Source: an uncultured bacterium (GTDB taxonomy: Bacteria; Bacillota; Clostridia; Lachnospirales; Lachnospiraceae). From it: 64,000 nt of DNA. Within the stretch, counting starts at the first letter, position 1, and each line of letters opens with the position of its first letter. The notes under the pieces are model-generated. The model did no database searches. It was not told where the DNA came from and worked only from the letters and a program-made list of their open reading frames with translations. Both the position numbers and the translations under genes were made by a program. The stretch lies in the NCBI GenBank assembly GCA_947383005.1, contig CANDBT010000005.1:62001-126000 (forward strand). Direction: 5' to 3'. Positions 524 through 24,386 of the stretch are shown here, piece after piece.

Positions 524-1138
524 ATGGAACCAAATCCGGATAAACTGATTGATAAAGAAAAATATAATTTTATAAAGAAGCAATATCATCAGGAAAATCT
601 AATCCCATACAAAGGCACATATTTTGCGCTGGATCCCTCTGCCAAGTTAGACATTAAAGGAAAATTAAACTTAAATACAAACTGTTTTCAGGGAAACGGA
701 CGTGTCACGAATTTGCGGATGGATGCAGACTCTCAATTCCTTGTACATGGTAGTTTTGATATTTTTTATGGCGGAGATATTATCATTTTTGCCGGTGCGA
801 AACTGGAGATAAGAAGCGGCTTTTGCAACAGCAATCTTTTACTTCGCTGCACAAATTGTATATGGATAGGGGACGAGGTGGCGATTTCCCATAATGTTAC
901 AATTATGGATTCGGATGCTCACGAGATAGTGGAGAATGAACATGCGAAAACACAGCCGGTCAGAATCGGAAATCATGTATGGATCGGTTCCGGAGCCAAG
1001 GTCTTAAAAGGCGTAACGATTGGGAATGGCGCAGTGATTGCAGCTGGTGCTGTAGTTACACGGAATGTTCCTGATCGATGTATGGCGGCGGGAGTTCCAG
1101 CCAGAGTGGTAAAGAAAGATATTGACTGGAAACTGTGA
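524..1138 (+). CDS. Hexapeptide-repeat O-acyltransferase
   Basis: A 204-residue left-handed beta-helix acyltransferase of the maltose/galactoside O-acetyltransferase kind. Hexapeptide periodicity is clear in the C-terminal half (VRIGNHVWIGSGAKVLKGV, then TIGNGAVIAAGAVVTRNVP), ending with AAGVPARVVKK, the usual cap of the sugar O-acetyltransferases. A His in the DSDAHEI segment is the candidate catalytic base. It probably transfers acetyl from acetyl-CoA to a sugar or polyol of the surface glycan in the cytoplasm. The ATG at 524 is preceded by GGGAGGGAAGG. The gene sits between two glycan genes on the same strand. The acceptor cannot be told from sequence. Confidence 0.82.
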   Translation: MEPNPDKLIDKEKYNFIKKQYHQENLIPYKGTYFALDPSAKLDIKGKLNLNTNCFQGNGRVTNLRMDADSQFLVHGSFDIFYGGDIIIFAGAKLEIRSGFCNSNLLLRCTNCIWIGDEVAISHNVTIMDSDAHEIVENEHAKTQPVRIGNHVWIGSGAKVLKGVTIGNGAVIAAGAVVTRNVPDRCMAAGVPARVVKKDIDWKL

Positions 1139-1204
1139 TTTTAATTGTTGTTGAATTTGAAAACATAGAAAGAATTTAAAATCTGAGTCAGGTGAGTGAA
1201 GGAT

Positions 1205-2593
1205 ATGAAAAATAAAACACAGATGATCCTTCTTGCAGGGGGAAAAGGCGAACGGTTTGGTGGCGAATTGCCTAAGCAATTTGTAAAGATTGCGGGACGA
1301 ACAGTAATTGAGCATACCATTGACCAGATAGAAAAATCTGAATTTATCGATTCGATGATTATTGTAATTAACGGAAAGTTTTATGACTATATGAATGATT
1401 TATTATTGAAAAATCATTTTCGGAAAGTCAAAAATGTAGTAATTGGAGGAAAGACCAGACAGGAATCTTCTTATATGGGAATTTGCGCCTGCGATGAAGA
1501 TACCGATAAAATATTATTTCATGATGCGATCCGTCCGTTTGTATCCGGAAAAATACTGGAGGATGTAGTAAAAGCCTTGGATAGTTATGATGCGGTGGAT
1601 GTAGCTATAGAATGCGCAGATACAATCGTGCAGATTGATGATAAAAGGATTATCGATAATATTCCGAAACGAAAATATCTAAGACGAGGACAGACGCCAC
1701 AGGGGTTTCGTAAGAGTGTAATAGAAGAGGCGTATAGAAGATATTTTGCTGATGGCTCTTTGGAGGTAACTGATGATTGCGGAATTGTCAGAGAGTATGA
1801 TCTGGCGGATATTTATGTGGTAGATGGAAGCGAGCAGAATATAAAGCTTACTTATCAGGAAGATATATATTTGGCGGATAAGCTTTTTCAGATCCGCTCT
1901 GTCAGAGGAAATACCCAAAATGAAAGAGGACAAGATATCTATTGCGCTTTGAAAGCTAAAGTGGGGGTTATTATTGGGGCTGGCGGAGGAATCGGAGCCG
2001 ATATCCAGCGCCTTTTGGAAAAACATGGATGCACAGCCTATGGTTTTTCTCGCAAAAGCGGCTGCGACATTAATCACTATGAACAAATCGAGGCTGTGTT
2101 AAAGCAGGTATATGAAAAGGAACATAGAATTGATTATGTGATCAATACAGCGGGAGAACTTCGGATAGGAAAGCTGGAAAGCATATCGGCGGAGGAAATT
2201 GATGGGTTAATTGGCGTGGATTATGGGGGAGCGGTTAAGGTGACAAAGGCATCACTTCCCTATCTGCGGCAGACGAAAGGGAGCTTGCTGCTATTTGCTT
2301 CCAGTTCCTATACCAGAGGGCGGGCCATGTACAGTGTTTATTCTTCAGCGAAGGCTGCCATAGTGAATTTCACACAGGCGGTAGCAGAGGAGATGGCAGA
2401 GGAAGGTGTTCGCGTTAATGTGATCAATCCGGAACGGACAGATACGCCTATGAGGAGAAAAAATTTCGGAAAGGAAGATCCGGCCACTCTTTTATCAAGC
2501 AGTGTGGTGGCGGAAGCTGCCATAGAAGCAGTTTCTGCGAATTATACAGGGCAGGTTATTGATGTGAGAAGAGACAGAGGGGTGAGAAAATGA
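1205..2593 (+). CDS. Bifunctional CDP-ribitol-type pyrophosphorylase / pentulose-5-phosphate reductase (IspD-SDR fusion)
   Basis: 462 residues with two domains. Residues 1-225 are an IspD/TarI-type cytidylyltransferase (LLAGGKGERFG, LPKQF and the later FHDAIRPFV). Residues 250-462 are a short-chain dehydrogenase with the nucleotide-binding loop GAGGGIG (258-264) and the catalytic YSSAK (Tyr379, Lys383). This arrangement matches Haemophilus Bcs1, which reduces ribulose 5-phosphate to ribitol 5-phosphate and couples it to CTP to give CDP-ribitol. ATG at 1205 is preferred because AGGTGA lies 9 nt upstream; GTG at 1196 is an alternative. The stop overlaps the next start (ATGA). The Rpe-like protein at 15213 could supply the pentulose phosphate. 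The domain call is strong; the exact polyol is inferred. Confidence 0.85.
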   Translation: MKNKTQMILLAGGKGERFGGELPKQFVKIAGRTVIEHTIDQIEKSEFIDSMIIVINGKFYDYMNDLLLKNHFRKVKNVVIGGKTRQESSYMGICACDEDTDKILFHDAIRPFVSGKILEDVVKALDSYDAVDVAIECADTIVQIDDKRIIDNIPKRKYLRRGQTPQGFRKSVIEEAYRRYFADGSLEVTDDCGIVREYDLADIYVVDGSEQNIKLTYQEDIYLADKLFQIRSVRGNTQNERGQDIYCALKAKVGVIIGAGGGIGADIQRLLEKHGCTAYGFSRKSGCDINHYEQIEAVLKQVYEKEHRIDYVINTAGELRIGKLESISAEEIDGLIGVDYGGAVKVTKASLPYLRQTKGSLLLFASSSYTRGRAMYSVYSSAKAAIVNFTQAVAEEMAEEGVRVNVINPERTDTPMRRKNFGKEDPATLLSSSVVAEAAIEAVSANYTGQVIDVRRDRGVRK

Positions 2594-5426: not shown

Positions 5427-7412
5427 ATGTTTGAAATGGATGATAGAAGGATGTTTGAAAATAAAGGAAGTATGCAGTATCGCAAGGAAATCAGTAAAAT
5501 TCAGAATATGAAATTTCCTGAATTTGTTTGGTTAAATAAAAATGGTTCCTATTGTAAAAAGTTGACTTATATAATGGAGAATGTTCAAATAGAGATAGAT
5601 TCAGATAATCGATTTATTTATTTTATTGATATGCGTTTGATTCCAGATAATTTCAGAGGCGTTGTATTTGATAATATTTCTCTGGACTATCGTAAGATTA
5701 TTCAATTTGGTTTGGAAGAATTAAAGTATAAACAAGAGGAATGTACGAATAAGTTTACTGAGGATTATAATCAAGTTATTAATGCTTTGATATTACTTTC
5801 TAAACGAATTTATCTTGAATTATTACAGAGAAATGACGAAAGAACTAACTGGTTTTCTAATATGATTCAAAAAAAGGCGGATTCTTTTGAGGAGGCAGTA
5901 CAGAGAATTTTGTTCCTTAATATGATTCTTTGGCAAACAAATCATCCATTGATGGGATTTGGCCTTTTAGATACAATTTTGGAAGAAGTTTATGAAAAAG
6001 ACAAAGAATGCGGAATCCAGAATAAGGATAAAGTAATGTGTCCGATTATGGATTTTTACCGAACGCTTCATAAATATTATTGGTATAAAAGTCATGCGTT
6101 GGTAGGAGATACAGGTCAGCTTATTATCGTGGGAAGAACTGATTTTGAAGGAAATTATCATTATAATGACTTGACATATTGCTTTATTGATGGAATAAAA
6201 AAACTTCAGTTTCCAGATCCAAAGGTTCTTCTTCGCGTATCTAAAGATACTCCAAGAGATTTAATGAATTGTGCTATGGAATGCATTGCGACAGGTGTTG
6301 GATGTCCGGTTTTAGCTAATGACGATGTGATTATTCCTAAATTAATAAAAAATGGAATTGACCAAAAAGACGCTTATGATTATGCTACAGCTGCTTGCTG
6401 GGAACCACTAATTGCGTGGAAGTGTCCATTTAGCAATAACCTAACTGTTTTAAATTACATGAAATCTATGGAAAATATGTTCATAAGAGAACCATTAGAA
6501 AAAATTGATAGCTTTGATAGTTTTGTTGAACGGTATCTATTTTATTTAAAGCATAACTTAAAAGCAGTAAAAAATTCTCTTTGGAATCGAAGGTTCGCTT
6601 ATGATCCTTTAGTTTCAATATTTATCGGGAATTGTAAAGAAAGGAAGAAAGACGTTTCAGCTGGCGGGGCGGTTTATAATGATTATGGAATGACGACCAT
6701 AGCTTTGGGAAATGTAATAAATGCTATGTGCAATATAAAGGAATATGTTTTTGAAAAGAAAGTATACACTTTACAAGAAATAAGAAATATTTTGTTGACT
6801 GATTTTGATAAAGAAGAAGATTTGATTGAAATGTTAAAAAGAAATCCAGATAAATATGGAACGGATAGCCATTTAGCTCTTGATTTAACAAATAAAATTA
6901 TTGATATAACATGTCAAAACACATTAGATTTTACTAATTATATGGGAGGAAAGTTAAAATTTGGTCTTAGCTCACCTGCTTATGTGGATGTCGGAAAAGG
7001 TTCTATGGCATCGTTTGATGGAAGAAAAAAGGGGGAACCTTTTTGTGTGCATATTTCGTCTCCTAATGCGGAAGCATATACAGAATTGGTAAATTTCGCG
7101 ACATCGATAGAATTAAAAGAAAATAGTTATAATGGAAATGTAGTGGACTTTATAACAACGCCCTCATTTATCTCAGAAAATTTAGTTAAGTTTGTAGATT
7201 TTGTATATGGTGGTATTGAAAAAGGCTTTCTTGAAATGCAGATAGGAGTAACAAGCAGCGATATGCTTATTTCCGCGAGAGAACATCCAGAGAAATTTCC
7301 TAATTTAATTGTGCGTGTCTGGGGATTTAGCGCGTATTTTAATGATCTGCCTGAGGATTATAAAAATGTAATAATAAAAAGGGCGTTAGAAAATGAAGGT
7401 AAAAGCGCATGA
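5427..7412 (+). CDS. Glycyl radical enzyme, dehydratase/lyase-like, short form
   Basis: 661 residues with both hallmarks of the pyruvate formate-lyase superfamily: the active-site Cys324 in the segment AACWEP, and a C-terminal glycyl radical loop RVWGFSAYF with Gly633 as the expected radical site. The Cys-x-Glu-Pro pattern (Glu326) is that of the eliminases (glycerol/propanediol dehydratase, choline lyase, hydroxyproline dehydratase) and not the Cys-Cys of pyruvate formate-lyase. At 661 residues it is clearly shorter than usual members (about 760-850). AGGAGGG lies 9 nt before ATG 5427. The activase gene overlaps its stop by 4 nt. Lying inside a glycan locus, it probably performs a radical dehydration or C-X cleavage of a polyol or amino-alcohol precursor. 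The substrate is unknown. Activity would need strict anaerobiosis. Confidence 0.85.
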   Translation: MFEMDDRRMFENKGSMQYRKEISKIQNMKFPEFVWLNKNGSYCKKLTYIMENVQIEIDSDNRFIYFIDMRLIPDNFRGVVFDNISLDYRKIIQFGLEELKYKQEECTNKFTEDYNQVINALILLSKRIYLELLQRNDERTNWFSNMIQKKADSFEEAVQRILFLNMILWQTNHPLMGFGLLDTILEEVYEKDKECGIQNKDKVMCPIMDFYRTLHKYYWYKSHALVGDTGQLIIVGRTDFEGNYHYNDLTYCFIDGIKKLQFPDPKVLLRVSKDTPRDLMNCAMECIATGVGCPVLANDDVIIPKLIKNGIDQKDAYDYATAACWEPLIAWKCPFSNNLTVLNYMKSMENMFIREPLEKIDSFDSFVERYLFYLKHNLKAVKNSLWNRRFAYDPLVSIFIGNCKERKKDVSAGGAVYNDYGMTTIALGNVINAMCNIKEYVFEKKVYTLQEIRNILLTDFDKEEDLIEMLKRNPDKYGTDSHLALDLTNKIIDITCQNTLDFTNYMGGKLKFGLSSPAYVDVGKGSMASFDGRKKGEPFCVHISSPNAEAYTELVNFATSIELKENSYNGNVVDFITTPSFISENLVKFVDFVYGGIEKGFLEMQIGVTSSDMLISAREHPEKFPNLIVRVWGFSAYFNDLPEDYKNVIIKRALENEGKSA

Positions 7413-8272
7413 GTATCATATACACAAACATTCAACGCATGTGTGTACATGATGGACCAGGAGTCAGGACTACTGTTTTTTTAAAGGGGTGTAATTTGGC
7501 TTGTCCGTGGTGTTGCAATCCGGAAAATATGCGTCGGGAAGTTGAATATTATTTTCAGCGAGAAAAATGTGAAAGAATAAAAAATAGAAAACGATTTTGC
7601 AGTAAATGCAAAATTTCAACTGGAGAATTTCCTACAGTAGAAACGATGAAAAAATGTATATGTCCTTTTGGATATATAGGCAAATATGGAAAATGTATAA
7701 ATGCGGAACATATGATGGATGTTTTATATAAAGACAGGGGATACTGGGGCAGAGATGGAGGTGTGACTTTTTCTGGCGGCGAAGCGCTATTGCAAATAGA
7801 GAAATTGCTTCCAGTTCTTGAAGCATTAAATAGAGAAAAAATTTCTGTGGTTTTTGAAACAGCTTTACATGTTCCATGGGAAAATGTAAAATTAGCGAGT
7901 TTATATACCGATTGCTTTTTGGTAGATGTTAAAATTCTTGACGAAGACATGTGTAACAATATAATCCATGGAAATGTTCGTTTGTTTTTGAGTAATGTGG
8001 AAAAATTGGTTAAAACAGAGAAAAATATTAAATTTAGGGTTCCGTGTTGTGATGAATATACATTAACAAAGTGTAATCAGAAATTACTGTTAGATTTTTT
8101 TGCCAAGTATACAAATATCCCTATAGAAATATTTGCTATTCATTCTTTAGGTAAGAAAAAATATGAATCTTTAAATAGAAAATGTTTTGAAAATCCATCA
8201 AAAGAAAAAATGACTCATTTTTATGATAATCTGGTGAAACAAGGAAACCAAGTAGCGATTATTCACATTTAA
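7409..8272 (+). CDS. Glycyl-radical-enzyme activating enzyme (radical SAM)
   Basis: 287 residues. The N-terminus RMCVHDGPGVRTTVFLKGC is the standard activase signature, and Cys28, Cys32 and Cys35 (CNLACPWC) bind the SAM-coordinated 4Fe-4S cluster. An insert at about residues 50-95 carries more cysteines (CERIKNRKRFCSKC, later CICPFGYIGKYGKC), resembling the extra cluster domain of dehydratase-class activases, though with irregular spacing. A GGVTFSGGEALLQ segment is the conserved SAM-binding glycine motif. It would abstract hydrogen from Gly633 of the upstream GRE. The start ATG overlaps that gene's stop (ATGA), so the pair is translationally coupled. Confidence 0.92.
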   Translation: MSIIYTNIQRMCVHDGPGVRTTVFLKGCNLACPWCCNPENMRREVEYYFQREKCERIKNRKRFCSKCKISTGEFPTVETMKKCICPFGYIGKYGKCINAEHMMDVLYKDRGYWGRDGGVTFSGGEALLQIEKLLPVLEALNREKISVVFETALHVPWENVKLASLYTDCFLVDVKILDEDMCNNIIHGNVRLFLSNVEKLVKTEKNIKFRVPCCDEYTLTKCNQKLLLDFFAKYTNIPIEIFAIHSLGKKKYESLNRKCFENPSKEKMTHFYDNLVKQGNQVAIIHI

Positions 8273-12706: not shown

Positions 12707-13594
12707 ATGTTGATATTAAAAAAGGTAGCACATGAGACGGTCTGGGGAGGAGAAAAGCTGATTCCTTATTCTGACGGCCAGGTGAAAAAAATTGGCCATT
12801 TATATTCCCTGTGTGGGGAGGAAGGGCTGGAGACAGTAATTTTGAATGGAAAATATCAAAATAGACCATTCCGTCTTTGGTTTAAGGAACATAAAGAACA
12901 ATTTGGTTTGGGACATTATGAAGAATTTCCATTGATTATCGCCTTGGTAGAAGCCTGTGACAATTTAAGTATACAAGTACATCCGGATGATAAAATCGCA
13001 AAGGAGGAAGAAGGGGCATCTTATGGTAAAAACGAGTCATGGTTTTTCCTGAATGCGCCAAAGCATGGCGTGATTTACAATGGATGTCTGGCTAACAGTA
13101 ATGAAGAAGTATTGACACAGCTTCAAGCTGGAAAGATGTTATCTGTTGTAGATACATTGCCTGTAGAGGCAGGGGATTATGTATATGTAGAGGCAGGTAC
13201 GCTTCATGCGCTGACAGCAGGTTCTTTTTTATATGAAATTGAAGAGAACAGTCCATGGACATATAGACTATATGATTATAATCGGACAGACGCGCAGGGA
13301 AAGCAGAGAGAACTCCATATAGATAAGGCAATGAAAGCATTAAAACCACAGCTTAAATCAAAAGCCTGCAGGATGGGCGAAAATTGTCAGGATGAACGCC
13401 GTTATTTGCTGAAAAAGCTCAAGGATGTACAGGAGTACATAAATGAGAGTTCAACATTGGAGTGTGTCACTTTATTGAGGGGCAGTTGTAAGGCAGATGG
13501 GATTTCTGTTACCATAGGGACAACGATTGTGCTTGAACCGGGAGAAAGGCTGGAGGGAGAGTTTAAGCTGGCGATGATGGCCCGGCCTAAGTAG
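12707..13594 (+). CDS. manA: Class I mannose-6-phosphate isomerase-like protein
   Basis: 295 residues, short bacterial ManA type. The cupin metal-binding features are present: LSIQVHPDD near residue 87, the Glu in NESWFFL, and the later EAGTLHALTAGS with a His ligand; the start VAHETVWGGEKL is typical. It interconverts fructose 6-phosphate and mannose 6-phosphate, the first step toward GDP-mannose or related sugars, in the cytoplasm. Its place in the glycan locus suggests a dedicated supply of mannose-6-phosphate, or a related aldose-ketose isomerisation. ATG 12707 is preceded by AATGAGGATATC. Base composition starts to rise here compared with the A+T-rich genes before it. Confidence 0.88.
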   Translation: MLILKKVAHETVWGGEKLIPYSDGQVKKIGHLYSLCGEEGLETVILNGKYQNRPFRLWFKEHKEQFGLGHYEEFPLIIALVEACDNLSIQVHPDDKIAKEEEGASYGKNESWFFLNAPKHGVIYNGCLANSNEEVLTQLQAGKMLSVVDTLPVEAGDYVYVEAGTLHALTAGSFLYEIEENSPWTYRLYDYNRTDAQGKQRELHIDKAMKALKPQLKSKACRMGENCQDERRYLLKKLKDVQEYINESSTLECVTLLRGSCKADGISVTIGTTIVLEPGERLEGEFKLAMMARPK

Positions 13595-14090: not shown

Positions 14091-15228
14091 GCGGGAAAAG
14101 GCGGCGCTGCTGACCTGGTGCTATAATAATGGCAAAACAAATTATGGTCAGATCCTTCAATGTTATGCAATGCAGACAATGATACAGCGATTGGGTTATG
14201 AGGTAAAGCTGATCCGGTACAGGAGAAAAATGCCGGAAGAGAAGATGAAAAATGGCATTTGTTCTGTACATATAAATAATTTATACGAACTATGGTATCG
14301 TCTGAAGACAGTGGAGGGCAAAGTTGATATCCGGATTATCCGGTTTATCCGCTTTATCAAAAGGTATATTCATTTATCCAGACAGTGCTATACGAAGGAG
14401 CAGGTGGAAACCGTATGTAAGGATTGCGGGGTGCTGTTTTGCGGAAGCGATCAGATATGGAATCCTTTATGGTTTGATGAGGTGTACGCGCTGAACTTCG
14501 GAAGAGAGGATCAGAAAAGGATTGCCTATGCGCCCAGCGGTGTTTTAATTGAAAATGATCAGAGTCAGGAGGTATACCGGGATATTGGAAAATACCTGGA
14601 GCGTTTTGACTGGGTTGCTGTACGTGAAAAGAAAAGCGTGGAAATCTTAAAAAAGTATACGAAAAAACTTGTTATGGATACGGTAGACCCGACATTACTG
14701 TTATCCAGAAAAGACTGGAACAAGGTAGCCGCGGGCAGGCAGTCAAAAGAGTCCTATATTTTCTGTTACTCACTTGGGCGTTTAAGGCCAAATAAATTAT
14801 TAGTGAAGCGGATCATGGAAAAATATGGCGCAAAAAAGGTCTTGTTTATTACATCCGGACATTATGAAAATGAGAGTGAGCAGGAAAAGGGAGGATGCTT
14901 CTTTTCTGTTGATACAGCGGGACCTTCAGAATTTCTGGCACTAATCCGGGATGCGGAAGCGGTGTGTACAGATTCCTTTCATGGTTTGGCATTATCACTG
15001 ATTTTTAAAAAACAGTTTTATATTTTTGAACGTAATGATCCGGATGTCGCGATATGGGCCAGCATGTTGCGGCAGAAAAATCTGCTGGAAAAGGTTGGAG
15101 TTAGCCATAAGAGAGTGATGAAGAATATAAAAGATATAGAAGAAATGGAACCGATTGATTATCAGGAGGTGAGAACTACCGGATATTGGAAAAAGATAAA
15201 GGAGCAATTGAGATGGATTTTGAATTGA
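14074..15228 (+). CDS. Polysaccharide pyruvyltransferase family protein
   Basis: 384 residues. The N-terminal ALLTWCYNNGKTNYGQILQCYA and LIRYRRK, the central LFCGSDQIWNP, and the C-terminal CTDSFHGLALSL are the hallmarks of the PF04230 family. Members transfer pyruvate from phosphoenolpyruvate to sugars as a ketal, or act as related GT-B-fold transferases. Proteins of this kind are often paired with the F420-hydrogenase-beta-like family, as at position 1 of this window. It probably decorates the glycan in the cytoplasm. Start at ATG 14074 within the end of the previous gene; its own end overlaps the next start by 16 nt. Confidence 0.85.
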   Translation: MNRRNRREKAALLTWCYNNGKTNYGQILQCYAMQTMIQRLGYEVKLIRYRRKMPEEKMKNGICSVHINNLYELWYRLKTVEGKVDIRIIRFIRFIKRYIHLSRQCYTKEQVETVCKDCGVLFCGSDQIWNPLWFDEVYALNFGREDQKRIAYAPSGVLIENDQSQEVYRDIGKYLERFDWVAVREKKSVEILKKYTKKLVMDTVDPTLLLSRKDWNKVAAGRQSKESYIFCYSLGRLRPNKLLVKRIMEKYGAKKVLFITSGHYENESEQEKGGCFFSVDTAGPSEFLALIRDAEAVCTDSFHGLALSLIFKKQFYIFERNDPDVAIWASMLRQKNLLEKVGVSHKRVMKNIKDIEEMEPIDYQEVRTTGYWKKIKEQLRWILN

Positions 15229-15875
15229 CAGCATCCATGATGTGCGCTGATTTTGGAAATTTGCAAAAAGAGGTAAGAGCGCTTGAGGCAGCAGGGATAG
15301 ATTCGTTTCATATTGATATTATGGACGGAAGATATGTTCCTAATTTTGCCATGTCACTGAATGATTTGAAATATATTGCCCGGATAACGGAAAAACCTGT
15401 GGATGTACATTTGATGATTGAACATCCCCTTAATCATATTGGATTATTTTTGTCGAACCTACGACAGGGAGACACAGTGTACATTCATCCAGAAGCAGAA
15501 TATCATCCGTCAACTACATTGCAGGAAATTATTAATGCGGGAATGATACCAGGAATCGCCATCAATCCAGGAACCAGTATTGAATCTGTAGCAGAGATGC
15601 TGCGGATTGTAAAGAAGGTTCTGGTCATGTCAGTTAATCCAGGTAATGCAGGGCAAATGTATTTATCCTATGTAGGAGAGAAAATCGAACGGTTACTGAC
15701 GATGAGAAAAAGAATGGATTTTATGGTATACTGGGATGGTGCATGCAGTGCAGAAAAGGTATTGGAATTTGCACCTAAAGGGGTAAAGGGATTCGTATTG
15801 GGAACTACGCTTCTTTTTGGAAAAAACAGAGCGTATGGAGATATATTAAAAGATATACGCTGCATGAAATTTTGA
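15213..15875 (+). CDS. Ribulose-phosphate 3-epimerase-like protein
   Basis: 220 residues of a TIM barrel with family motifs: TASMMCADFGNL at the N-terminus, FHIDIMDGRYVPN (metal and proton-transfer Asp), DVHLMIEHP, and MSVNPGNAGQ in place of the common VNPGFGGQ. It should epimerise C3 of a ketose phosphate, either ribulose/xylulose 5-phosphate or an allulose-6-phosphate-like substrate. Being in the locus with a pentulose-phosphate reductase/CDP-polyol fusion, it could tune the pentulose pool for CDP-polyol synthesis. ATG 15213 is chosen because AAAGGAG lies about 9 nt upstream; it overlaps the previous stop. Confidence 0.85.
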   Translation: MDFELTASMMCADFGNLQKEVRALEAAGIDSFHIDIMDGRYVPNFAMSLNDLKYIARITEKPVDVHLMIEHPLNHIGLFLSNLRQGDTVYIHPEAEYHPSTTLQEIINAGMIPGIAINPGTSIESVAEMLRIVKKVLVMSVNPGNAGQMYLSYVGEKIERLLTMRKRMDFMVYWDGACSAEKVLEFAPKGVKGFVLGTTLLFGKNRAYGDILKDIRCMKF

Positions 15876-15982
15876 TCAGATGAAGGATTAAACGAAAATC
15901 AAAGGAAGAAACATATAGATGTTATGATTTTGGGTAAATAGGGAAATAGAACGAAGGGATACTTGAAGAGAAGATAAAAGGG

Positions 15983-16321
15983 ATGATGGAAAATTTAATT
16001 AAAGCACAGGCAAAAGATTTTATATCAATTATACAGCATATACATACAACCATAAGAAGGCTATTGGAGGCTGGGAATTATCCGTTGGCTATGCTACAAT
16101 TAGAGCAGTGCCAGAGTTATGCGATTTCATTTGGACGGCAACTGGAAGCGGCAGAAGGAGAGAATTCCATTACTGTTGCTTTATTAGAAGATTATTGTGA
16201 ATTGATTTATCAGATATATGAAAAGCTTCGTTGTTTTTTGCCGGTAGATTCCAATTACATTCATAATTCTCTGGCCGAACAAATGATCCGTATCAGAAAC
16301 AGTATTAAAAATATTAACTAA
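15983..16321 (+). CDS. Small helical protein of unknown function
   Basis: 112 residues, predicted almost entirely helical (IIQHIHTTIRRLLEAGNY, LLEDYCELIYQIYEKLRCF), without signal peptide or membrane segment. I do not recognise the family. ATG 15983 or 15986 may be used; AAAAGGG lies close upstream. It closes the run of plus-strand glycan genes after a 107-bp gap and is followed by a change in gene content, so it may mark the end of the locus. It could be an adaptor or regulator. The composition resembles the glycan genes and not the downstream secreted-protein gene. Confidence 0.55.
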   Translation: MMENLIKAQAKDFISIIQHIHTTIRRLLEAGNYPLAMLQLEQCQSYAISFGRQLEAAEGENSITVALLEDYCELIYQIYEKLRCFLPVDSNYIHNSLAEQMIRIRNSIKNIN

Positions 16322-16403
16322 GAGACTGTTTTTATAAAATCATATAAGATGTTTGCTTCACAAAATAACCATAGTAGGCCAGCGGAATAGCGGAGGAGAA
16401 TCC

Positions 16404-17798
16404 ATGAGTAAAAAAGCAAAGAATTATTTGTTGATGATATTATCTGTTTTCGTTCTGTTTCCGCGATCCTTTTCCGCCGCTGCTTCTCCTGGGATAGCAA
16501 CGGCCAGTACAGCGGATTGGGGAGAAATACAGAGCGTAAGGACAGATTCCCCAGAAAGAAATGCTGGGCAGGGAGATACAGCGGAGACAAATATAGTGAA
16601 AACCGATACCGAAGAAAACAGCGGCAGGAGTGGCATTGTTCAGGTGGTTATGCCAGTGAACACGGAGCATGTATTTGACTTTATCATGGATCCCCAGGAG
16701 CTGATCAGGAAAACAGATGCCGCGGCTTACAGCGGAAGCCGGTTCGAAGAGGATGCTACTCTGTTTTTTCGGCGTTCGGATGACGGGACGGAGGTAGATT
16801 ACAGCAGCTCCAGCGATGCCCTTGAGATTGTGAATAAAGGGGAAAGGGAGGTAAAGGTTACCCTGACTGCCAGGGTTTTTCCTGATTCCATTGCAGGAAT
16901 TACCATGAGCGAGGATCCGGAATTCCCGGGTAATGCAGATGCCAGCCTGTATCTTGCCCTGACAGATGGGGAAGCTACGGTGCCTGTGGACGGTGAAGAC
17001 GGCGCAGTTATTGAAACCGTGATTCCTGGAGTTCTTAAGGGAGAGGAGCCTAATGAATATGCGTTTCAGCTTATCGGGGCAGTGAATAAGGAAGGAGATT
17101 GGTCGGAGATGGTTGATATTGCCCCGAAGGTAACCGTTACCTGGATGGTCAGTATGGACGAAGAGACCATATTGAGTGATGAGGAGATATGGGATGAAGA
17201 CATACTGGATGAAGATATATTGGATGAAGATATACTGGACGAGGATGAGATAAAAGGGGAAGATAGTCAATCAGAAAAGGAAAAAACGAAAGAAGAAGGC
17301 AGGACAGATCCAGGAAAGAGCGGCGGAACGGAAAAAGGCAACCCGGAGGGAAAATCTGAAGGTGGAGAAGGGGATGCCGTATTCCCAGGAAGCAGCCCTG
17401 GGGGAAATAAACCAGAGGAAGAAAGTAGTGGGGCAGTGGGGCAGGAACGGCCAGAAGAAGACAGTACTCCCGGGCAGGAACCGGAAGGAGAGGAAGGAAG
17501 CGATTTCCCAGAAGGCTCTGGAACAGAGGAGGACGATATTTTAAGAGAAGAAAAAAGTGGTATTTTGGGGGATGAATCCAGGGATGGGGAAGGAGATGCT
17601 TCCGGGGCAACCTCCGGAAATGGGGAAAGAGATGCTTTTGGGGAGGCATCCCCGGGGGAGGAAGGTGAAGTTTTCGGGAAGGACTCTGAAGACAGGGAAA
17701 TTGATGCTTCCGAAGAGGAACTCCAAGAGACGCAAACCGAACATGGTATTTCAATAAGCTCTGGAAGAAATTATGAATGTTTTTGGATTTTCTCTTGA
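16404..17798 (+). CDS. Secreted acidic repeat-containing protein
   Basis: 464 residues. A signal peptide is clear (SKKAKNYLLMILSVFVLFP, then cleavage near FSAAAS). Residues 80-250 look like a beta-rich extracellular domain of the kind seen in Lachnospiraceae surface proteins, ending with KVTVTWMVS. From about residue 255 the sequence becomes low-complexity: DEDIL is repeated (17193-17252) and the rest is rich in Glu, Gly, Pro and Ser. No LPXTG motif, cell-wall binding repeat or C-terminal membrane anchor is seen; the protein ends abruptly in ECFWIFS, so a frameshift that removed an anchor is possible. ATG 16404 has GGAGGAG upstream. The function is unknown, probably at the cell surface. Confidence 0.65.
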   Translation: MSKKAKNYLLMILSVFVLFPRSFSAAASPGIATASTADWGEIQSVRTDSPERNAGQGDTAETNIVKTDTEENSGRSGIVQVVMPVNTEHVFDFIMDPQELIRKTDAAAYSGSRFEEDATLFFRRSDDGTEVDYSSSSDALEIVNKGEREVKVTLTARVFPDSIAGITMSEDPEFPGNADASLYLALTDGEATVPVDGEDGAVIETVIPGVLKGEEPNEYAFQLIGAVNKEGDWSEMVDIAPKVTVTWMVSMDEETILSDEEIWDEDILDEDILDEDILDEDEIKGEDSQSEKEKTKEEGRTDPGKSGGTEKGNPEGKSEGGEGDAVFPGSSPGGNKPEEESSGAVGQERPEEDSTPGQEPEGEEGSDFPEGSGTEEDDILREEKSGILGDESRDGEGDASGATSGNGERDAFGEASPGEEGEVFGKDSEDREIDASEEELQETQTEHGISISSGRNYECFWIFS

Positions 17799-17828
17799 AT
17801 CCATGTCATACATAAAAGGAATGAAGGG

Positions 17829-17978
17829 ATGGCAAGACAAAGAAGCACACAAACTAAAGCGTCTTTTCCATCCCCACCTGTCACGCATACTTGGCAGGCG
17901 CCGTCGGAAACCGAAGAGGAGGCGGTGGCTCTCCTTGCCGCTCTTAGGAAACAATTAGAGCAGTACAGAGATTCATAA
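17829..17978 (+). CDS. Possible 49-residue protein
   Basis: An open frame from ATG 17829 with AAAGGA about 9 nt upstream. The N-terminal half is rich in Ser, Thr and Pro; the C-terminal half has a regular helical pattern (TEEEAVALLAALRKQLEQY) that looks like real coding sequence. It lies 30 bp after the secreted protein gene and could also be the displaced end of a larger decayed gene. I do not recognise it. Confidence 0.35.
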   Translation: MARQRSTQTKASFPSPPVTHTWQAPSETEEEAVALLAALRKQLEQYRDS

Positions 17979-18472
17979 CAAGAGAGCAGCCTTTTATGAC
18001 ATTATTTAATATGATGTGTTATAATTTGCTTAGTTGGATTAGAGTGAGTAGGGATATAGTTTATGGTTGTTTTTCACGGAAACGGAAAAATCTATTGCTC
18101 TGTTCCGGCAGCTTCTTTAGAATCCAAAGACAATTTGAATGGGCATATGAGGTTACGTTCACAAGGTACTTGTGAACATAACCTCATTTTTGTGGACAAA
18201 TTAATGCCCCTTGAGGATATTTGTTAGTAATAGTTTACAGGAGTGGGAATAGACGAATAATCATTGACATTGAACTGCCAAAATAGTACTATAAAATTTA
18301 TAATTCAACTCAGGCATCTACAGAGAATTATATTAAGGTTGTTCATAAAAATAACGCTGATTGCTCCAGTCAAAAGAAGTGTCATTACAGATATAAAGGG
18401 AAAAAACTTTAGCTGTAGAACCGATTAAAAATATGGTCACACAAATGATGGTTGACAATATGATCAACCCTG
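17979..18472. other. Gene-poor stretch
   Basis: About 490 bp without a convincing gene. It contains one copy of the TTCACA palindromic repeat (18141-18187). A 54-codon open frame (18063-18227) runs through that palindrome, but it has no ribosome binding site that I trust. The rest is A+T rich and shows nothing recognisable. Confidence 0.5.
18141..18187. repeat. TTCACA-type palindromic repeat, copy 1
   Basis: GGGCATATG leads into a long hairpin: ATGAGGTTA-C-GTTCACA (18147-18163), loop AGGTACT, TGTGAAC-A-TAACCTCAT (18171-18187), with one mismatch. A short T-run follows, so it may also terminate transcription. Related copies lie at 27439, 35157 and 44877. Confidence 0.7.
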
Positions 18473-18567
18473 TATTTATGCACAGGCCCGCACAGAGGAA
18501 TATGTCGCTAAAGCGGCGTGCGGGCCGCGCGGCGAGTAGGGGAAGATGGCTCTTCCCTACTCGATTA
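18473..18567. repeat. Two-hairpin intergenic repeat, copy A
   Basis: Stem 1 pairs GGCCCGCAC (18485-18493) with GTGCGGGCC (18518-18526) around an inner stem closing on TAAA. Stem 2 pairs CGAGTAGGGGAAGA (from 18533) with TCTTCCCTACTCG (to 18563), leaving one unpaired G. Other copies are at 43046, 52765 and, partly, 58621. Confidence 0.85.
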
Positions 18568-18734
18568 TCTAAAATCGCAGGGCTTACACTTTCTATGATA
18601 GAAGCGACTTATTATCCCAAAGATTGGAATGTGAAATATGAAGAAGATATAAATAAGTGCATCAATAAAAGCATTGCACAAAATGATTATTATTGTTATG
18701 TATAAAATGCGTTAAAAATAAGGAGCATATAGGT

Positions 18735-20333
18735 ATGGGAATTTATTTAAATCCAGGAAATGAACAGTTTGCCGTTTCTGTCAATTCTGAATTGTATGTG
18801 GACAAGACAGAACTTATAAAATATACAAATAGCCGTATAGGAAAAGACAGGGCATTAATTTGTTCTAGCAGGCCAAGAAGATTTGGAAAAACGATGGCTG
18901 TTAATATGTTGGCGGCATATTATAGCCGGGGATGTCATTCAGAAGAGTTATTTGCGAATCTTAAAATTAGTAAAAATGAACTTTTTCGGCTACATTTAAA
19001 CAAATATGCGGTTATTTTTTTGGATATCCAATGGATGTATGGAAATGCTCTTGAGGAAATGAGAAGAAATTCTGCTGTTAAAGTGGTGAGTTATATTCAG
19101 GATCAGGTAATTGCCGAGTTAAAGACAGAATATCCGGAATATGTTAAGGATACAGATATTTCACTGCCATCCGTATTGGCAAAAATTAATGCGTATACAA
19201 AAGAACAGTTTATCATTATTATTGATGAATGGGACTGCCTGTTCCGCGAGGATAAAAATAATGAAAAACTCCAAAAGGAGTATCTTAACCTGCTAAGGGG
19301 ATTGTTTAAAGGGGCTCCGTCAGGGGCATTTTTAAAGCTGGCTTATATTACGGGAATTTTGCCAATAAAAAAATATGGTACTCAGTCAGCGCTGAATAAT
19401 TTCAGGGAGCATACAATGGTCAGTGCCAGGCAAATGGCGGAGTATGTTGCTTTTACGGAAACAGAAGTAAAGATTTTGTGCGAAGAATATAATGTTCCGT
19501 TTAAAGAAATGCAGAAATGGTATGATGGGTACTATTTTGACAAGATCGGACATATTTACAGCCCTAACTCTGTAGTTGAGGCGATAGATAGCGGAGAATT
19601 TGGAAATTATTGGTCGGGGACAGAAACGTACGAGTCTTTGATGACGTATATTGCGATGGATTTTAAAGGATTAAGGCAATTGATTGTGGATATGCTGGGG
19701 GGGGCAAGATGCAGTATTGATGTAGAATCCTTTCAAAATGATATTACTTCTTTTAATTCAGCGGATGATGTGGTTACGTTATTGATCCATATGGGATATT
19801 TAGCCTATGATAATAAAGCGAAAGAAGTTTTTATCCCAAATGAGGAAGTGAGGAGTGTTTTCCTGCGGGCTATTAAAAATGATGGATGGGATGAAGTAAT
19901 AAAAGCGGTAAATGCGTCAGAGGCACTACTTAGGGCTACCTTGAATATGGATGAAAGAGCAGTGGAAGAAATGATACAAGAAGTCCATATGCAAAACACA
20001 TCCAGCCTTGTTTACAATAACGAGATTTCGCTGGGCAGCGTGATTGTATTGGCATATTACAGCGCATGTAAAGATTATGTCCTTATAAGAGAAATGCCGG
20101 CGGGTAATGGATTTTCAGATATGGTTTTTCTTCCGAAGCGGACTTCTTTAAAGCCAGCTTTGCTCTTGGAGTTAAAATGGGATAAGACTGCCGAAGGAGC
20201 AATCAGCCAGATTAAAAACAGAAGGTATATATCTGCCCTGGACGAGTACAAAGGAAATGTTTTGCTTGTTGGGATTAATTACGAAAAGAAAAGCAAAAAA
20301 CATCAATGCAGAATAGAGAAATTTGAAATGTGA
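18735..20333 (+). CDS. AAA-ATPase / PD-(D/E)XK nuclease-like protein (DUF1703 type)
   Basis: 532 residues. The N-terminus FAVSVNSELYVDKTELI with the Walker A variant SRPRRFGKTMAVNML and Walker B IIIDEWD defines the AAA-ATPase-like family common in gut Clostridia and Bacteroidetes. The C-terminal 150 residues end with a PD-(D/E)XK core in which LLELKWD supplies the Glu-x-Lys. Members are usually multicopy and of unknown function; they are suspected to be defence or selfish elements. ATG 18735 has AAGGAG 10 nt upstream; longer frames upstream would read into the two-hairpin repeat and are rejected. It stands alone between repeats and a recombinase gene, consistent with accessory DNA. Confidence 0.88.
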   Translation: MGIYLNPGNEQFAVSVNSELYVDKTELIKYTNSRIGKDRALICSSRPRRFGKTMAVNMLAAYYSRGCHSEELFANLKISKNELFRLHLNKYAVIFLDIQWMYGNALEEMRRNSAVKVVSYIQDQVIAELKTEYPEYVKDTDISLPSVLAKINAYTKEQFIIIIDEWDCLFREDKNNEKLQKEYLNLLRGLFKGAPSGAFLKLAYITGILPIKKYGTQSALNNFREHTMVSARQMAEYVAFTETEVKILCEEYNVPFKEMQKWYDGYYFDKIGHIYSPNSVVEAIDSGEFGNYWSGTETYESLMTYIAMDFKGLRQLIVDMLGGARCSIDVESFQNDITSFNSADDVVTLLIHMGYLAYDNKAKEVFIPNEEVRSVFLRAIKNDGWDEVIKAVNASEALLRATLNMDERAVEEMIQEVHMQNTSSLVYNNEISLGSVIVLAYYSACKDYVLIREMPAGNGFSDMVFLPKRTSLKPALLLELKWDKTAEGAISQIKNRRYISALDEYKGNVLLVGINYEKKSKKHQCRIEKFEM

Positions 20334-20455
20334 TTTTTAGGTCTGAGTCATATTCCGCCAAACAAATGCCATATTATCAAAAAAGAAAAAATCTGGAGTT
20401 GCTGACGTGCAGGGGGCGGAAATAGCGAGTGCCGGATTCTCCGGAATTTCCGTAA

Positions 20456-20473
20456 CGCTGTACTAGTACAGCG
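20456..20473. repeat. 18-bp perfect palindrome before the recombinase gene
   Basis: CGCTGTACTAGTACAGCG is fully self-complementary and ends about 10 bp before the start of the serine recombinase at 20483, overlapping its leader. It shares the core AGTACTAG/CTAGTACT with the inverted repeat at the end of the second recombinase (37040-37103). It could be an operator or recombinase site; neither is shown. Confidence 0.55.
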
Positions 20474-20482
20474 AGGGGGATA

Positions 20483-21643
20483 ATGGCACAGAAAAGCAAG
20501 AAAGGCGAAGAAAGCGGGAAGAATAAGAAAAACGGGGAAAGAAACGAAAACAGGAAAAGCGCAGAAAACAAAAAAAGTTGGGGAAACAAGAATAACGGGG
20601 AAGACAGTAGCGAAACAACAGCACAGGCGCAGGCAATACCGCCTCCTTCTGCCGTTTACGCCACGGCGATTTATGCAAGGCTGTCCGTGGAGAATGGCGG
20701 GAGACAGGATGGGGGCGGTTCCCTCAAAGATCAGATAGATGTATGCCGGGATTATATCGCGAAATGCCCCGGCCTGGAGCTAAAAGAGGTATATTCCGAT
20801 AATGGCAGGACGGGGACGGTTTTTGACCGGCCCGCATGGAACCGTCTTATGGGCGACGCGCAGTCGGGAAAGATACAGGCGATTGTAGTCCGTGACTTGA
20901 GCCGCTTTGGGCGCAACTATATCGAAACGGGCAATTATCTGGAGAAGATATTCCCTGCTCTCGGCGTCAGATTCATCTCCGTAAAGGAAAACTTCGACAG
21001 CATGGACTGCGGCGGCTCTCTGGAGACGTTTTTTGTCCGATTGCAGACAGCAGATATGTTTCCCCTCCATCTAAAAAACTTGTTCAATGATTTTTATGCC
21101 CGTGATATCTCGGCAAAAACAGGTTTGATTTTGCGCGAAAAACAGGAGCGGGGACAGTTTATTGGGACGTGGGCGGCTTATGGCTACCGGAAATCCGAAG
21201 ACGGCCATTGCCTTGTACCGGATGAGAAAACAGCGCGGGTTGTCCGGGATATTTTTGCCTGGCGGGCAGAAAATCTTAGTTTTCGGGAGATTGTCAGACG
21301 GCTTAAGGGCCAGGATATTCCTTCTCCTGGCCGTTACCGCTACCGGGAAGGGCTGGTGAGGGATGAACGCTTTGCCTCGGCTTCATGGAGGCCGCAAACC
21401 GTAAAAGAAATTGTGGAAAATCCTGTATATCTGGGGCATATGGTACAGGGAAAACAGAGAAAATCCCTGCTGTACGGACAGAAGCGGGCGGCGGTTCCTA
21501 AAGAAGAGTGGATTATTATTAAAAATACTCATAAGGCGATTATTGACCAGGATATTTTTGAGAAAGTTCAGCAAATCAATAAGAAAAAGTGTGATAAACG
21601 CTTGACAAACAGCAACGAAAACGAACCAAAGAATGACAAATAG
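20483..21643 (+). CDS. Large serine recombinase, shortened, with Lys-rich N-terminal tail
   Basis: 386 residues. After a charged tail of about 55 residues (Lys, Asn, Glu, Gly) the resolvase domain begins at AIYARLSVENGG, with the catalytic Ser in the GSLKDQID segment and VVRDLSRFGRNYIETGNYL. The recombinase domain follows (GYRKSEDGHCLVPDE to NPVYLGHMVQGK). It stops after the SHEAI-equivalent region (NTHKAIIDQDIFEKVQ) and lacks the zinc ribbon and coiled coil that the 35543 protein has, so it is either a natural short form or truncated. ATG 20483 has GCGAGGGGG upstream. A strong terminator follows at 21661. No other mobile-element genes adjoin it. Confidence 0.85.
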   Translation: MAQKSKKGEESGKNKKNGERNENRKSAENKKSWGNKNNGEDSSETTAQAQAIPPPSAVYATAIYARLSVENGGRQDGGGSLKDQIDVCRDYIAKCPGLELKEVYSDNGRTGTVFDRPAWNRLMGDAQSGKIQAIVVRDLSRFGRNYIETGNYLEKIFPALGVRFISVKENFDSMDCGGSLETFFVRLQTADMFPLHLKNLFNDFYARDISAKTGLILREKQERGQFIGTWAAYGYRKSEDGHCLVPDEKTARVVRDIFAWRAENLSFREIVRRLKGQDIPSPGRYRYREGLVRDERFASASWRPQTVKEIVENPVYLGHMVQGKQRKSLLYGQKRAAVPKEEWIIIKNTHKAIIDQDIFEKVQQINKKKCDKRLTNSNENEPKNDK

Positions 21644-21660
21644 AGGTTGATAATTTTAAG

Positions 21661-21706
21661 AGAAGGAAGTATGATATTGCATATCATAGATATCCTTCTT
21701 TTTTTC
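21661..21706 (+). terminator. Rho-independent terminator after the recombinase gene
   Basis: AGAAGGA and TATGATAT pair with ATATCATA and TCCTTCT around a short TGC loop, followed by a run of eight T. It lies 17 bp after the recombinase stop. Confidence 0.8.
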
Positions 21707-21977
21707 TTCAGTTCTTGCATACGTATCCGTTACTGTCCATGCCACGGCTAGTCTTTCTGCCGATAAGCCTGAGCCAATTCAGTAATGGGGCTAAAGCATA
21801 TGCTCCCCGTATACAGTAACGATTTGCCAAATGCCCGGGCACGTTTTAAGGAAATATGGGAAACGCTTTGGTAAATCATTTGGCTCACAGGTATACATAA
21901 CCGGGAAAACTTTGGGGTTTACTTGAGCGGGAAACAGAAATAAAGAGGAAAGCAGCAGGAAAGGGGAAACAGGTTTT
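21707..21977. other. Intergenic leader before the MMPL gene
   Basis: About 270 bp without a gene. Short inverted pieces are present (GGGGC...GCTCCCC near 21786-21807; GCCAAATG near 21826 with CATTTGGC near 21879), which could fold into a leader. I recognise no known riboswitch consensus. A ribosome binding site AAAGGGG lies before ATG 21978. Confidence 0.4.
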
Positions 21978-24386
21978 ATGGAACACAAGACTGATCGCGG
22001 AAATTTTATGATGCAGCTGGCGACATTCGTGGTAAATAAACGGAATGCGTTTGTGGTATTGTTTGCGATTGCCTGTATTTATTGCCTGACTACTTTAAAC
22101 AAGGCGAAAGTGAATACGGAATTGACGGATTATCTGTCGGATACGACAGAGACGAGGCAGGGTCTGGATATTATGGACCGTGAGTTTACCACTTTTGGCT
22201 CGGCAAAAATCCTGGTGACGAATATTACTTATGAAAATGCATTGAAAGAGGCACAGGATCTGGAAGAGATCCGGGGGATTTCTACGGTTCGTTTTTTTGA
22301 TTGGGATGACGAGGACGGGACATATGATGATGAAGAATTGTCTGATTATTATAAAGATGCTTGTGCATTGTATACATTGACGTTTGAGGAAGAGGAAGAT
22401 ACGGAATTGTCCCAGAGGGCTATCAGCCGTGTGCGGGAGCAATTGAAAGATTATCAAACATTTTTTTACACGACGGTGGATAAGGATGACAATGCGGCGC
22501 TGAAACAGGATATGAAGGGGATTCTGGCTGTGGCGGCAGCGATCATTTTGCTGGTGCTGCTGTTCACTTCCAATACTTATATGGAAATCATAATTTTCAT
22601 GATGACCTTTATTGTGGCGATCATTTTAAATACAGGGACAAATTTCTGGTTTGGCGAGATATCTTTTGTGACCAATGCCGTGGCCGCGGTGCTGCAGTTG
22701 GCTTTGTCAATTGATTATGCGATTATTTTGTTTCACCGTTTTATGGAGGAACATGAGACAAAAGAAACCGTTGAGGCGGTTACCGTGGCTTTGAGCAAGG
22801 CTATCCCGGAGATTTCGTCCAGCAGCCTGACCACGGTCTCGGGTATGGTGGCGCTGATGCTGATGCAGTTTGGCATAGGGATGGATTTGGGACGTGTTTT
22901 GACAAAGGCGATTGTTTTTAGTTTGATTACGGTTTTTTTCCTGATGCCGGCCATGATTGTGATGATGTCCAAATGGATAGAAAAGACGGTGCACCGCAGT
23001 TTTGTGCCGTCTATTGAGATTTGGGGCAAACTGGTGGTAAAGACGCGGTATTTGGTTCTGCCGGTTTTTGCAGTGGTCATGGTTGGGGGCTGCATCCTTT
23101 CAAGCCGGTGTGAATATGTATATGATCATGGCTCGATTGAGGCAGATAAGATGAATGAATATATGACTTCCAAGGTGCGGATCGAAAAGACTTTTGAAGT
23201 GACCAATACGATGGCGGTAGTGGTGCCAAAGGGGGATTATCAAAAAGAAGCAAAGATTATTGAAGGTCTGGAACAGGTGGAGCGGGTAGATACCGTCCTG
23301 GGCCTCAGCAATGTGGAGGTGGATGACGAGGGGAAATATATTTTGGTCAATGAGCTGAATCCCCGGGAATTTGCGGAGGTTTCCGATGTCGATCTGGATT
23401 TGGTGCGTCTTTTATACCAGTTTTATGCGATTGATAAAGAACAGTACGGGGCGTTTATGAAAAATCTGGACGAATACCGAGTGCCGATTATCGATATGGT
23501 CGATTTTATCTATGACCAAAAAGAAAAAGGAGCCATCGACCTGGATGACGACTTGTCTCAGGATGTGGATGATCTTCATGATGCGTTGAGCGATGCCAGA
23601 CAGCAGTTAGAGGGTGAATCTTATTCGCGGATTGTCTTTACGATGACCGGACCTGTCGAGGGAGAGGAAACGTTCCGGGTTATTGATCAGATCCGGAATA
23701 TTGCCGCACAGTATTATGACGAGGTTTATGTGGTCGGCGATTCTACCAGCGATTACGATTTGAGCAAATCGTTTCGCGTGGACAATGTAAAGATCAGTGT
23801 GCTGACGGCTTTGTTTGTAGGGATTATTTTGCTGTTTACTTTCCAGTCGGCAGGGCTTCCGATTATGCTGGTGTTTACGATTCAGAGCAGCATATGGATT
23901 AATTTTTCCATACCTCCGTTAAAAGGCGGCACCATGTTTTTCCTCAGCTACTTGATTGTGAGCGCGATTCAAATGGGGGCAACGATTGATTATGCTATTG
24001 TGATAACCAGCCGCTATATGGCTTTGCGCAAGCAGATTGACGACCGCAAGCAGGTCGTGGTGACGGCTTTGAACCAGGCGTTTCCTACGGTGGCCACTTC
24101 CGGTACGATTCTTACCTGTGCCGGATTTGCCGTGGGGCGGCTGACCTCCAACGCGATTATTGCTTCCCTGGGAAAGGCTCTGGGGGCAGGTACGCTGATT
24201 TCCATTATCTTGGTTATGACGGTGCTGCCGCAGCTTTTGCTGGTATTTGACAGGGTGATTGAGCGAACGGAATTTAACCGTGGTGCAAAGCCGGATGAGC
24301 AGTCAAAAAACGGGGCGGACAGCCAGACCGGTGTCCAGCCGGCAGAAACAGAAGGAGGTGCGGATAATGAAAAAGAGGAGAATTAG
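21978..24386 (+). CDS. MMPL/RND-family transporter
   Basis: 802 residues with the two-repeat layout of MMPL proteins: an N-terminal membrane helix (AFVVLFAIACIYCL), a first extracellular domain (about 40-170), a bundle of five or six helices (about 175-340) containing ALSIDYAIILFHRFMEE, a second extracellular domain (about 380-590) and a second bundle (about 600-780) with QMGATIDYAIVITSRYM. The Asp in each SIDYA/TIDYA segment is the likely proton-relay site. It probably exports a lipid or hydrophobic molecule, driven by the proton gradient. Its end overlaps by 20 nt the next gene, a surface GLUG protein, which suggests that the two act together. The ATG start is preceded by AAAGGGG. Confidence 0.88.
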   Translation: MEHKTDRGNFMMQLATFVVNKRNAFVVLFAIACIYCLTTLNKAKVNTELTDYLSDTTETRQGLDIMDREFTTFGSAKILVTNITYENALKEAQDLEEIRGISTVRFFDWDDEDGTYDDEELSDYYKDACALYTLTFEEEEDTELSQRAISRVREQLKDYQTFFYTTVDKDDNAALKQDMKGILAVAAAIILLVLLFTSNTYMEIIIFMMTFIVAIILNTGTNFWFGEISFVTNAVAAVLQLALSIDYAIILFHRFMEEHETKETVEAVTVALSKAIPEISSSSLTTVSGMVALMLMQFGIGMDLGRVLTKAIVFSLITVFFLMPAMIVMMSKWIEKTVHRSFVPSIEIWGKLVVKTRYLVLPVFAVVMVGGCILSSRCEYVYDHGSIEADKMNEYMTSKVRIEKTFEVTNTMAVVVPKGDYQKEAKIIEGLEQVERVDTVLGLSNVEVDDEGKYILVNELNPREFAEVSDVDLDLVRLLYQFYAIDKEQYGAFMKNLDEYRVPIIDMVDFIYDQKEKGAIDLDDDLSQDVDDLHDALSDARQQLEGESYSRIVFTMTGPVEGEETFRVIDQIRNIAAQYYDEVYVVGDSTSDYDLSKSFRVDNVKISVLTALFVGIILLFTFQSAGLPIMLVFTIQSSIWINFSIPPLKGGTMFFLSYLIVSAIQMGATIDYAIVITSRYMALRKQIDDRKQVVVTALNQAFPTVATSGTILTCAGFAVGRLTSNAIIASLGKALGAGTLISIILVMTVLPQLLLVFDRVIERTEFNRGAKPDEQSKNGADSQTGVQPAETEGGADNEKEEN

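Follow-up and report, generated by a model that had tools for sequence, protein, structure and literature searches.

What does a glycyl radical enzyme (GRE) do among genes for a surface glycan? The question is raised by a stretch of 64,000 nucleotides from an uncultured bacterium of the Lachnospiraceae (assembly GCA_947383005.1, contig CANDBT010000005.1, positions 62,001 to 126,000; hereafter the window), in which an initial annotation had noted a GRE and its activase amid glycan-type partners. The window protein very probably serves surface-glycan assembly, and eliminase-type chemistry is likely for it. We lean towards the reading that it is a member of a distinct GRE clade of anaerobic Clostridia that is devoted to the assembly of surface glycans, with chemistry of the eliminase type. 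Since this branch of oxygen-sensitive enzymes is located in, and in rare cases fused to, the machinery that joins sugars, free-radical chemistry in these Clostridia probably builds an unusual surface sugar.

The enzyme, its activase and their relatives

The two genes at the centre of the locus are as follows:

5427..7412, + strand: GRE, 661 residues; ATG start; Cys324, Glu326, Gly633
7409..8272, + strand: radical S-adenosylmethionine (SAM) GRE activase, 287 residues; ATG start; 4-base overlap with the GRE open reading frame (ORF)

By its domains, catalytic Cys and C-terminal glycyl loop, the window protein is assigned to the GRE superfamily. It matches the PFL-like model PF02901 at 220 bits (E 7e-65) and the Gly_radical model PF01228 at 39 bits, each above its cut-off; the Cys loop reads Cys324-Trp325-Glu326-Pro327, and Gly633 lies within VRVWGFSAYF. 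The initial annotation had placed Cys324, Glu326, Pro327 and Gly633 correctly. The activase exceeds the TIGR02494 cut-off (217 versus 174 bits). None of the GRE models in NCBIfam is passed by the window GRE, the best being TIGR01774 with 215 bits against a cut-off of 678. Scores lie between 97 and 160 bits for the NCBIfam equivalog models of CutC, HypD, HpfG/HpsG, IAD and HPAD, with cut-offs of 1000–1150 bits, and at 179 bits for PRK09983 (PflD/YbiW), with a cut-off of 1109. The small size that had been remarked on is borne out by the GRE chains matched in the PDB, which have 759–897 residues with two exceptions, GrcA (127 residues) and a CutC construct (1150 residues). In the alignment with PflD, the shortening is chiefly one gap of ~70 residues between strand 58–63 and segment 80–88. 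Loop 222–229 of the predicted model has a predicted local distance difference test (pLDDT) score below 50.

Relatives were collected in 44 distinct family loci, after merging of contigs met twice (L037 = L024; L080 = L048). Scanning 84,980 species genomes gave 29 loci, mostly from metagenome-assembled Clostridia, several of them labelled rumen or omasum. Further genomes, with the window genome counted each time, gave 11 of 397 within the family and 3 of 391 within the class at E 1e-150, and 11 of 392 within the order at E 1e-100; three of the last (366–377 bits), including L081 and L082, resemble the short ABC-type GREs discussed below. Identity to the window GRE is 35–47% for 25 aligned members, and the nearest relative (L075) reaches 60%. 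Cys324 and Gly633 are invariant in all 26 aligned members. CWE is present in 44/44 loci and the radical loop RV[WC]GFS in 41/44, the exceptions being two genes cut by a contig edge (L050, L051) and one disrupted gene (L048, from G414). The disrupted gene is what would be expected if these proteins were non-catalytic or regulatory relatives, spare radical domains or decaying genes, but the retention of CWE and the radical loop, together with an activase that adjoins the GRE in 39/44 loci, makes this barely credible.

An unrooted tree that combines 26 full-length members with 18 other GREs shows the family as one clade (100/100), with four short ABC-type GREs nearest to it and CutC, HypD, PflD and YbiW farther out. 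The clade persists (SH-aLRT 100) in a second tree, built from 39 members after five family members that are short or disrupted and a single long-branch reference had been dropped; five of its members, the window GRE among them, form a sub-branch with support 100. Grouping with a characterised GRE, which the initial annotation had named as grounds for giving up its proposal, is thus not seen for CutC, HypD, PflD or YbiW in the trees, and no named model is passed. Judged from sequence, the window GRE belongs to the superfamily and appears eliminase-like, yet it falls in no characterised GRE family by the tests made.

Downstream of CX3CX2C, the window activase has seven Cys within 70 residues. 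The same stretch holds 0–2 in 19 of 20 other family activases (three in L046) and 4–10 in activases of other GREs (n = 12), a count that left out L075 and L087–L094. In 22/26 members versus 3/18 other GREs, the N-terminus is a basic leader (at least +4 net charge over the first 40 residues), which the window's own branch is without. The window genome (4.99 Mb, 136 contigs) contains three PF02901 genes. Besides the window GRE, they encode a full PFL-type protein and, on another contig, a paralogue 47% identical to this GRE, which adjoins an activase, a DUF4422 gene and a gene resembling that of the small partner. Two GREs occur in one locus in tandem in L042 (L042:3-1217) and facing each other in L054, all but one of them cut short. 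One family GRE lies on a 3.5-kb contig binned as Methanobrevibacter (L035), which is either a real archaeal copy or a binning error. No GRE relative was confirmed on viral contigs. Plasmid searches matched 22 records; among the five matches listed, identity was 23–27%, three being named as other GREs and two lacking annotation.

Glycan context and coupling to glycosyltransferases

By tblastn with self-hits excluded, at least one glycan-assembly gene class (GT2, GT4, Wzx, Wzy, Glf, LicD, WbaP, DUF4422 and similar) was found in 41/44 family loci versus 0/8 control loci of other GREs. The gene classes were named from the family loci and the controls (L025–L028, L081, L082, L096 and L098, other-GRE loci retrieved with long flanks) are a non-random sample, so the test shows a contrast and not an unbiased rate. 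Misses are L035, with only 3.5 kb of sequence, L047, and L075, which carries a WbsX glycosyltransferase by Pfam. L095, with another GRE and glycan genes, was kept out of the controls, and its inclusion gives 1/9. Among 130 neighbours up to three genes away in 31 loci, Pfam identifies GT2 27 times, Polysacc_synt (Wzx) 15 times, Wzy_C five times and GLF four times. The 25 commonest of the 66 families in this neighbour set include no catabolic-type transporter, dehydrogenase or microcompartment shell family. Over 36 loci, the gene content comprises a Wzx flippase in 21, a GlfT1-like GT2 in 14, Glf in 10, an IspD-type gene in eight and phosphoenolpyruvate (PEP) mutase in two. Loss of the glycan context in close relatives, likewise named at the outset as evidence to the contrary, is therefore not what is observed, and fusions to GT2 proteins provide independent evidence in the same direction.

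The coupling to GT2 proteins is seen at two levels. A GT2 with the motif N-x-GG-[AS]-x-GF lies directly upstream of the GRE in 11/40 loci, versus 2.1 expected by random placement among same-strand ORFs (nominal P 2.6e-7, with a motif picked after inspection and loci that are related); of the four loci outside this count, three have the GRE at a contig end and one has it as a fusion. A stricter form of the motif, used at first, gave nine versus 1.6. The loci with an upstream GT2 are scattered over several branches of the tree. Moreover, GT2 and GRE form a single 988-residue frame in L090, and GT2 and activase a single 746-residue frame in L088. For eight separate GT2s the best NCBIfam match is GlfT1 (NF050113), at 64–88 bits and so below the cut-off of 330, and the first match of the activase-fused GT2 in L088 is a rhamnosyltransferase model. 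Adjacency and fusions are the strongest evidence for a GRE that works on, or with, glycan building blocks.

This evidence also bears on whether a catabolic GRE, fermenting a polyol or sugar, could have come to lie in a glycan locus by chance. The nearest outside group, the short GREs, is found partly in sugar-ABC-transporter operons, as such an origin would suggest, but the context in 41/44 loci, the GT2 fusions and the absence of catabolic-type families from the commonest neighbours largely refute the idea, and we regard it as highly improbable.

Other gene combinations were noted beside the family. In L095, from the window's genus, LicD and GT2 accompany a second, unrelated GRE of 860 residues (L095:7200-9782), and genes of the TagF, TagD and Kdo types were recognised there by eye; the nearest relative found for this GRE, in L098, adjoins sugar-ABC-type genes. 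Recruitment of GREs to glycans may have happened twice. A profile comparison of the small partner encoded upstream of the window GRE with the N-terminal domain of the L095 GRE gave a probability of 11.5% (E 0.0026, one pair), and homology is not claimed. L024 (295-4566) and L053 (10380-16154) carry a PEP mutase–cytidylyltransferase fusion with LicD near and, by eye, phosphonopyruvate-decarboxylase-like genes, so that phosphonate-decorated glycans are perhaps made beside the GRE in these two loci. As a general role of the family, phosphonate handling was rejected on the count of two PEP mutase loci in 36.

The window locus and its conserved cassette

Around the GRE and activase, the window encodes:

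524..1138, + strand: hexapeptide-repeat acyltransferase, by Pfam
1196..2593, + strand: fusion of IspD-type cytidylyltransferase and short-chain dehydrogenase (SDR), candidate Bcs1-like synthase of a cytidine diphosphate (CDP)-polyol; 70% identical in L075
2590..4131, + strand: fusion of NTP_transferase nucleotidyltransferase and APH-type kinase; 65% identical in L075
4104..4511, + strand: HAD-type phosphatase-like protein, weak family matches; 82% identical in L075
4444..5028, + strand: conserved cassette protein, 194 residues, no Pfam match; 60% identical in L075
5029..5412, + strand: small partner, 127 residues, weak match to a NeuD/PglD-type model; 50% identical in L075
8287..9624, + strand: conserved cassette protein, 445 residues, no Pfam match; 49% identical in L075
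9655..10934, + strand: cassette gene in two frames (206 + 235 residues); 48 and 59% in two pieces versus L075
10935..12668, + strand: GT2 glycosyltransferase
12707..13594, + strand: phosphomannose-isomerase-like protein; 62% identical in L075
14074..15228, + strand: polysaccharide pyruvyl transferase
15186..15875, + strand: ribulose-phosphate 3-epimerase family; 67% identical in L075

The IspD–SDR and NTP_transferase–APH fusions, the GT2, the pyruvyl transferase and the epimerase confirm the glycan-type partners that had been listed initially. L075, from another genus of the same family as the window, has 11 genes related to the window cassette, among them the GRE (60% identical) and the activase (48%), and this shared cassette is a defined pathway module. 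The relative of 9655-10934 in L075 is a single 418-residue ORF, so the two frames in the window reflect a frameshift or an assembly error. The position immediately before the GRE is taken up by a small partner of this type not only in the window but also in L023, L040, L050, L075 and L088.

The 1196-2593 protein combines PF01128 and adh_short in one chain, as expected of a Bcs1-type CDP-ribitol synthase, and Bcs1 has the same domain order. It scores below the D-ribitol-5-phosphate model NF001183 (154 versus 166 bits) and narrowly misses TIGR00453 (ispD). Bcs1 itself is described as a CDP-ribitol synthase of a capsule locus that supplies an IspD-type cytidylyltransferase and a reductase (PMC10299916). 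In the stretch before the window, a CDP-glycerol-phosphotransferase-like enzyme (L029:9211-10608) and a nearby SDR were assigned by eye. Right after the glycan locus (window 18693-21643) follow an AAA-ATPase-like/PDDEXK_9 protein and a serine recombinase; inverted repeats in 15800-22000 are short only, 14–22 nucleotides.

Proposed chemistry and comparison with known enzymes

By homology to other GREs, the activase with SAM would generate a radical on Gly633, which would in turn produce a thiyl radical on Cys324. In the sugar or polyol unit that serves as substrate, the thiyl would abstract hydrogen from a carbinol carbon whose hydroxyl group Glu326 would handle as the base, and breakage of the adjacent C–O bond would leave a deoxy-carbonyl unit. 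The linked glycosyltransferase would add this unit to the glycan, or would have done so just beforehand, and export would follow. In the window branch, the conserved CDP-polyol, kinase-nucleotidyltransferase and HAD module would supply the substrate. This module suits the window branch; for part of the other loci it is Glf and GlfT1-like transferases that fit. Galactofuranose as the GRE substrate was retained as no more than a lead, since Glf and GlfT1-like GT2s occur in 0/5 window-branch loci and the GT2s score far below the GlfT1 cut-off; the window genome has Glf on another contig.

Two observations weigh against the favoured eliminase in glycan assembly. From sequence alignments (MAFFT, HMMER), with which all pocket residues were assigned, Asn83 and Asn338 occupy positions where known dehydratases have acid residues, the match of Asn83 to a His being read from a printed alignment block where MAFFT gaps the reference rows; simple dehydration is therefore not assured. 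In addition, the polyol source does not extend readily beyond the window branch, the CDP-polyol module being common to the window and the orthologous locus L075. The deoxy- or amino-polyol product proposed at the outset is not supported for the same reason, with an IspD-type gene in 8/36 loci as compared with Wzx in 21/36 and a GlfT1-like GT2 in 14/36. What stands of that first interpretation is the eliminase class, with which the CxE motif and a predicted fold nearer to eliminases and dehydratases than to pyruvate formate-lyase (PFL) or ribonucleotide reductase (RNR) are consistent.

The two Asn residues, with Cys324, Glu326 and Gly633 kept, would also suit a radical epimerase or isomerase, which takes hydrogen from a sugar carbon and returns it to the opposite face without bond cleavage, to give an unusual stereoisomer for the glycan. 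The absence of aldehyde and alcohol dehydrogenases from the 25 commonest neighbour families agrees with such a reaction. The predicted fold is, however, closest to eliminases, the glutamate of CxE is kept, and we know of no GRE with epimerase activity; we find this improbable.

Tentatively, the clade might perform a tailoring step at the membrane, where GRE and glycosyltransferase would jointly act on a sugar linked to a nucleotide or lipid, in a pocket possibly opened by loss of an aromatic lid and ~70 N-terminal residues. The b3 aromatic residue of other GREs falls in a family gap (MAFFT) or opposite Gly230 (HMMER), and is absent either way.

If the favoured assignment of an eliminase-type clade to surface glycans is correct, glycan structures possible only without oxygen would follow, that is, surface sugars that only anaerobes can make. 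A GRE clade that builds surfaces would bring radical chemistry into glycan biosynthesis, with the GT2 fusions pointing to the partner; the activase, the GT2 and, for the window branch, the 11-gene cassette make the question of the substrate directly testable. The GREs whose role is known to us are catabolic, fermentative or deoxynucleotide-making, and if the tailoring step applies, this would to our knowledge be the first GRE to act on a glycan precursor. Among the titles and opening abstract lines listed by literature searches over open-access text, there was no work on a GRE in a glycan locus.

The closest outside group consists of short GREs (L025, L026, L027, L008/L028, L081 and L082), mostly of 669–700 residues and ~28–30% identical, which are a further uncharacterised GRE group. 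The four that were aligned have CWE, VRVWG, DPK, GDxGQ and both Asn residues in common with the family. Unlike family loci, theirs show a glycan-assembly match in 0/6 cases, and several lie beside sugar-ABC genes. L026 has one ATPase and two permeases, the layout of YtfR/YtfT/YjfF, but a galactofuranose importer was dropped there because the ATPase scores higher with RbsA (514 bits) than with YtfR (459 bits) and the permeases match ribose or arabinose types first. For CutC, the window GRE scores 158.6 bits against a cut-off of 1050, and the site of CutC Asp216 is Asn. Propanediol and glycerol dehydratases (5i2a, 1r8w) are 24–25% identical, and the aromatic residue at b3 is missing in the window GRE; the B12-independent enzymes are marked by a His on b1 and an Asp at Cys+14, residues with roles in glycerol dehydratase, and these are replaced by Asn83 and Asn338.

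PflD and YbiW share with the family the GRE fold, CxE and the radical loop, and the top sequence match in the PDB is PflD in complex with 1,5-anhydromannitol-6-phosphate (8id0; 172 bits, or 285 bits with a profile), with 8yjo also among the best. PflD and YbiW are catabolic lyases of anhydrohexitol phosphates, which are sugar-like substrates, acting on 1,5-anhydromannitol-6-phosphate and 1,5-anhydroglucitol-6-phosphate, respectively (PMC12441222). A cleavage of this type, opening the ring of a cyclic sugar or anhydro-polyol to give a methyl-ketone or deoxy-ketose glycan unit, would agree with that match and with the Gly, in place of an aromatic residue, that HMMER aligns at b3 in both PflD and the family. 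We nevertheless consider it unlikely, as PflD and YbiW group with classical GREs in the trees, apart from the family, and PflD has Asp at Cys+14 where the family has Asn. Identity over the model is 21–24%, and the radical loop reads RVAGYS in PflD as compared with RVWGFS in the family. The genomic settings differ as well: E. coli pflD sits between PTS genes, unlike the window GRE with its glycan locus.
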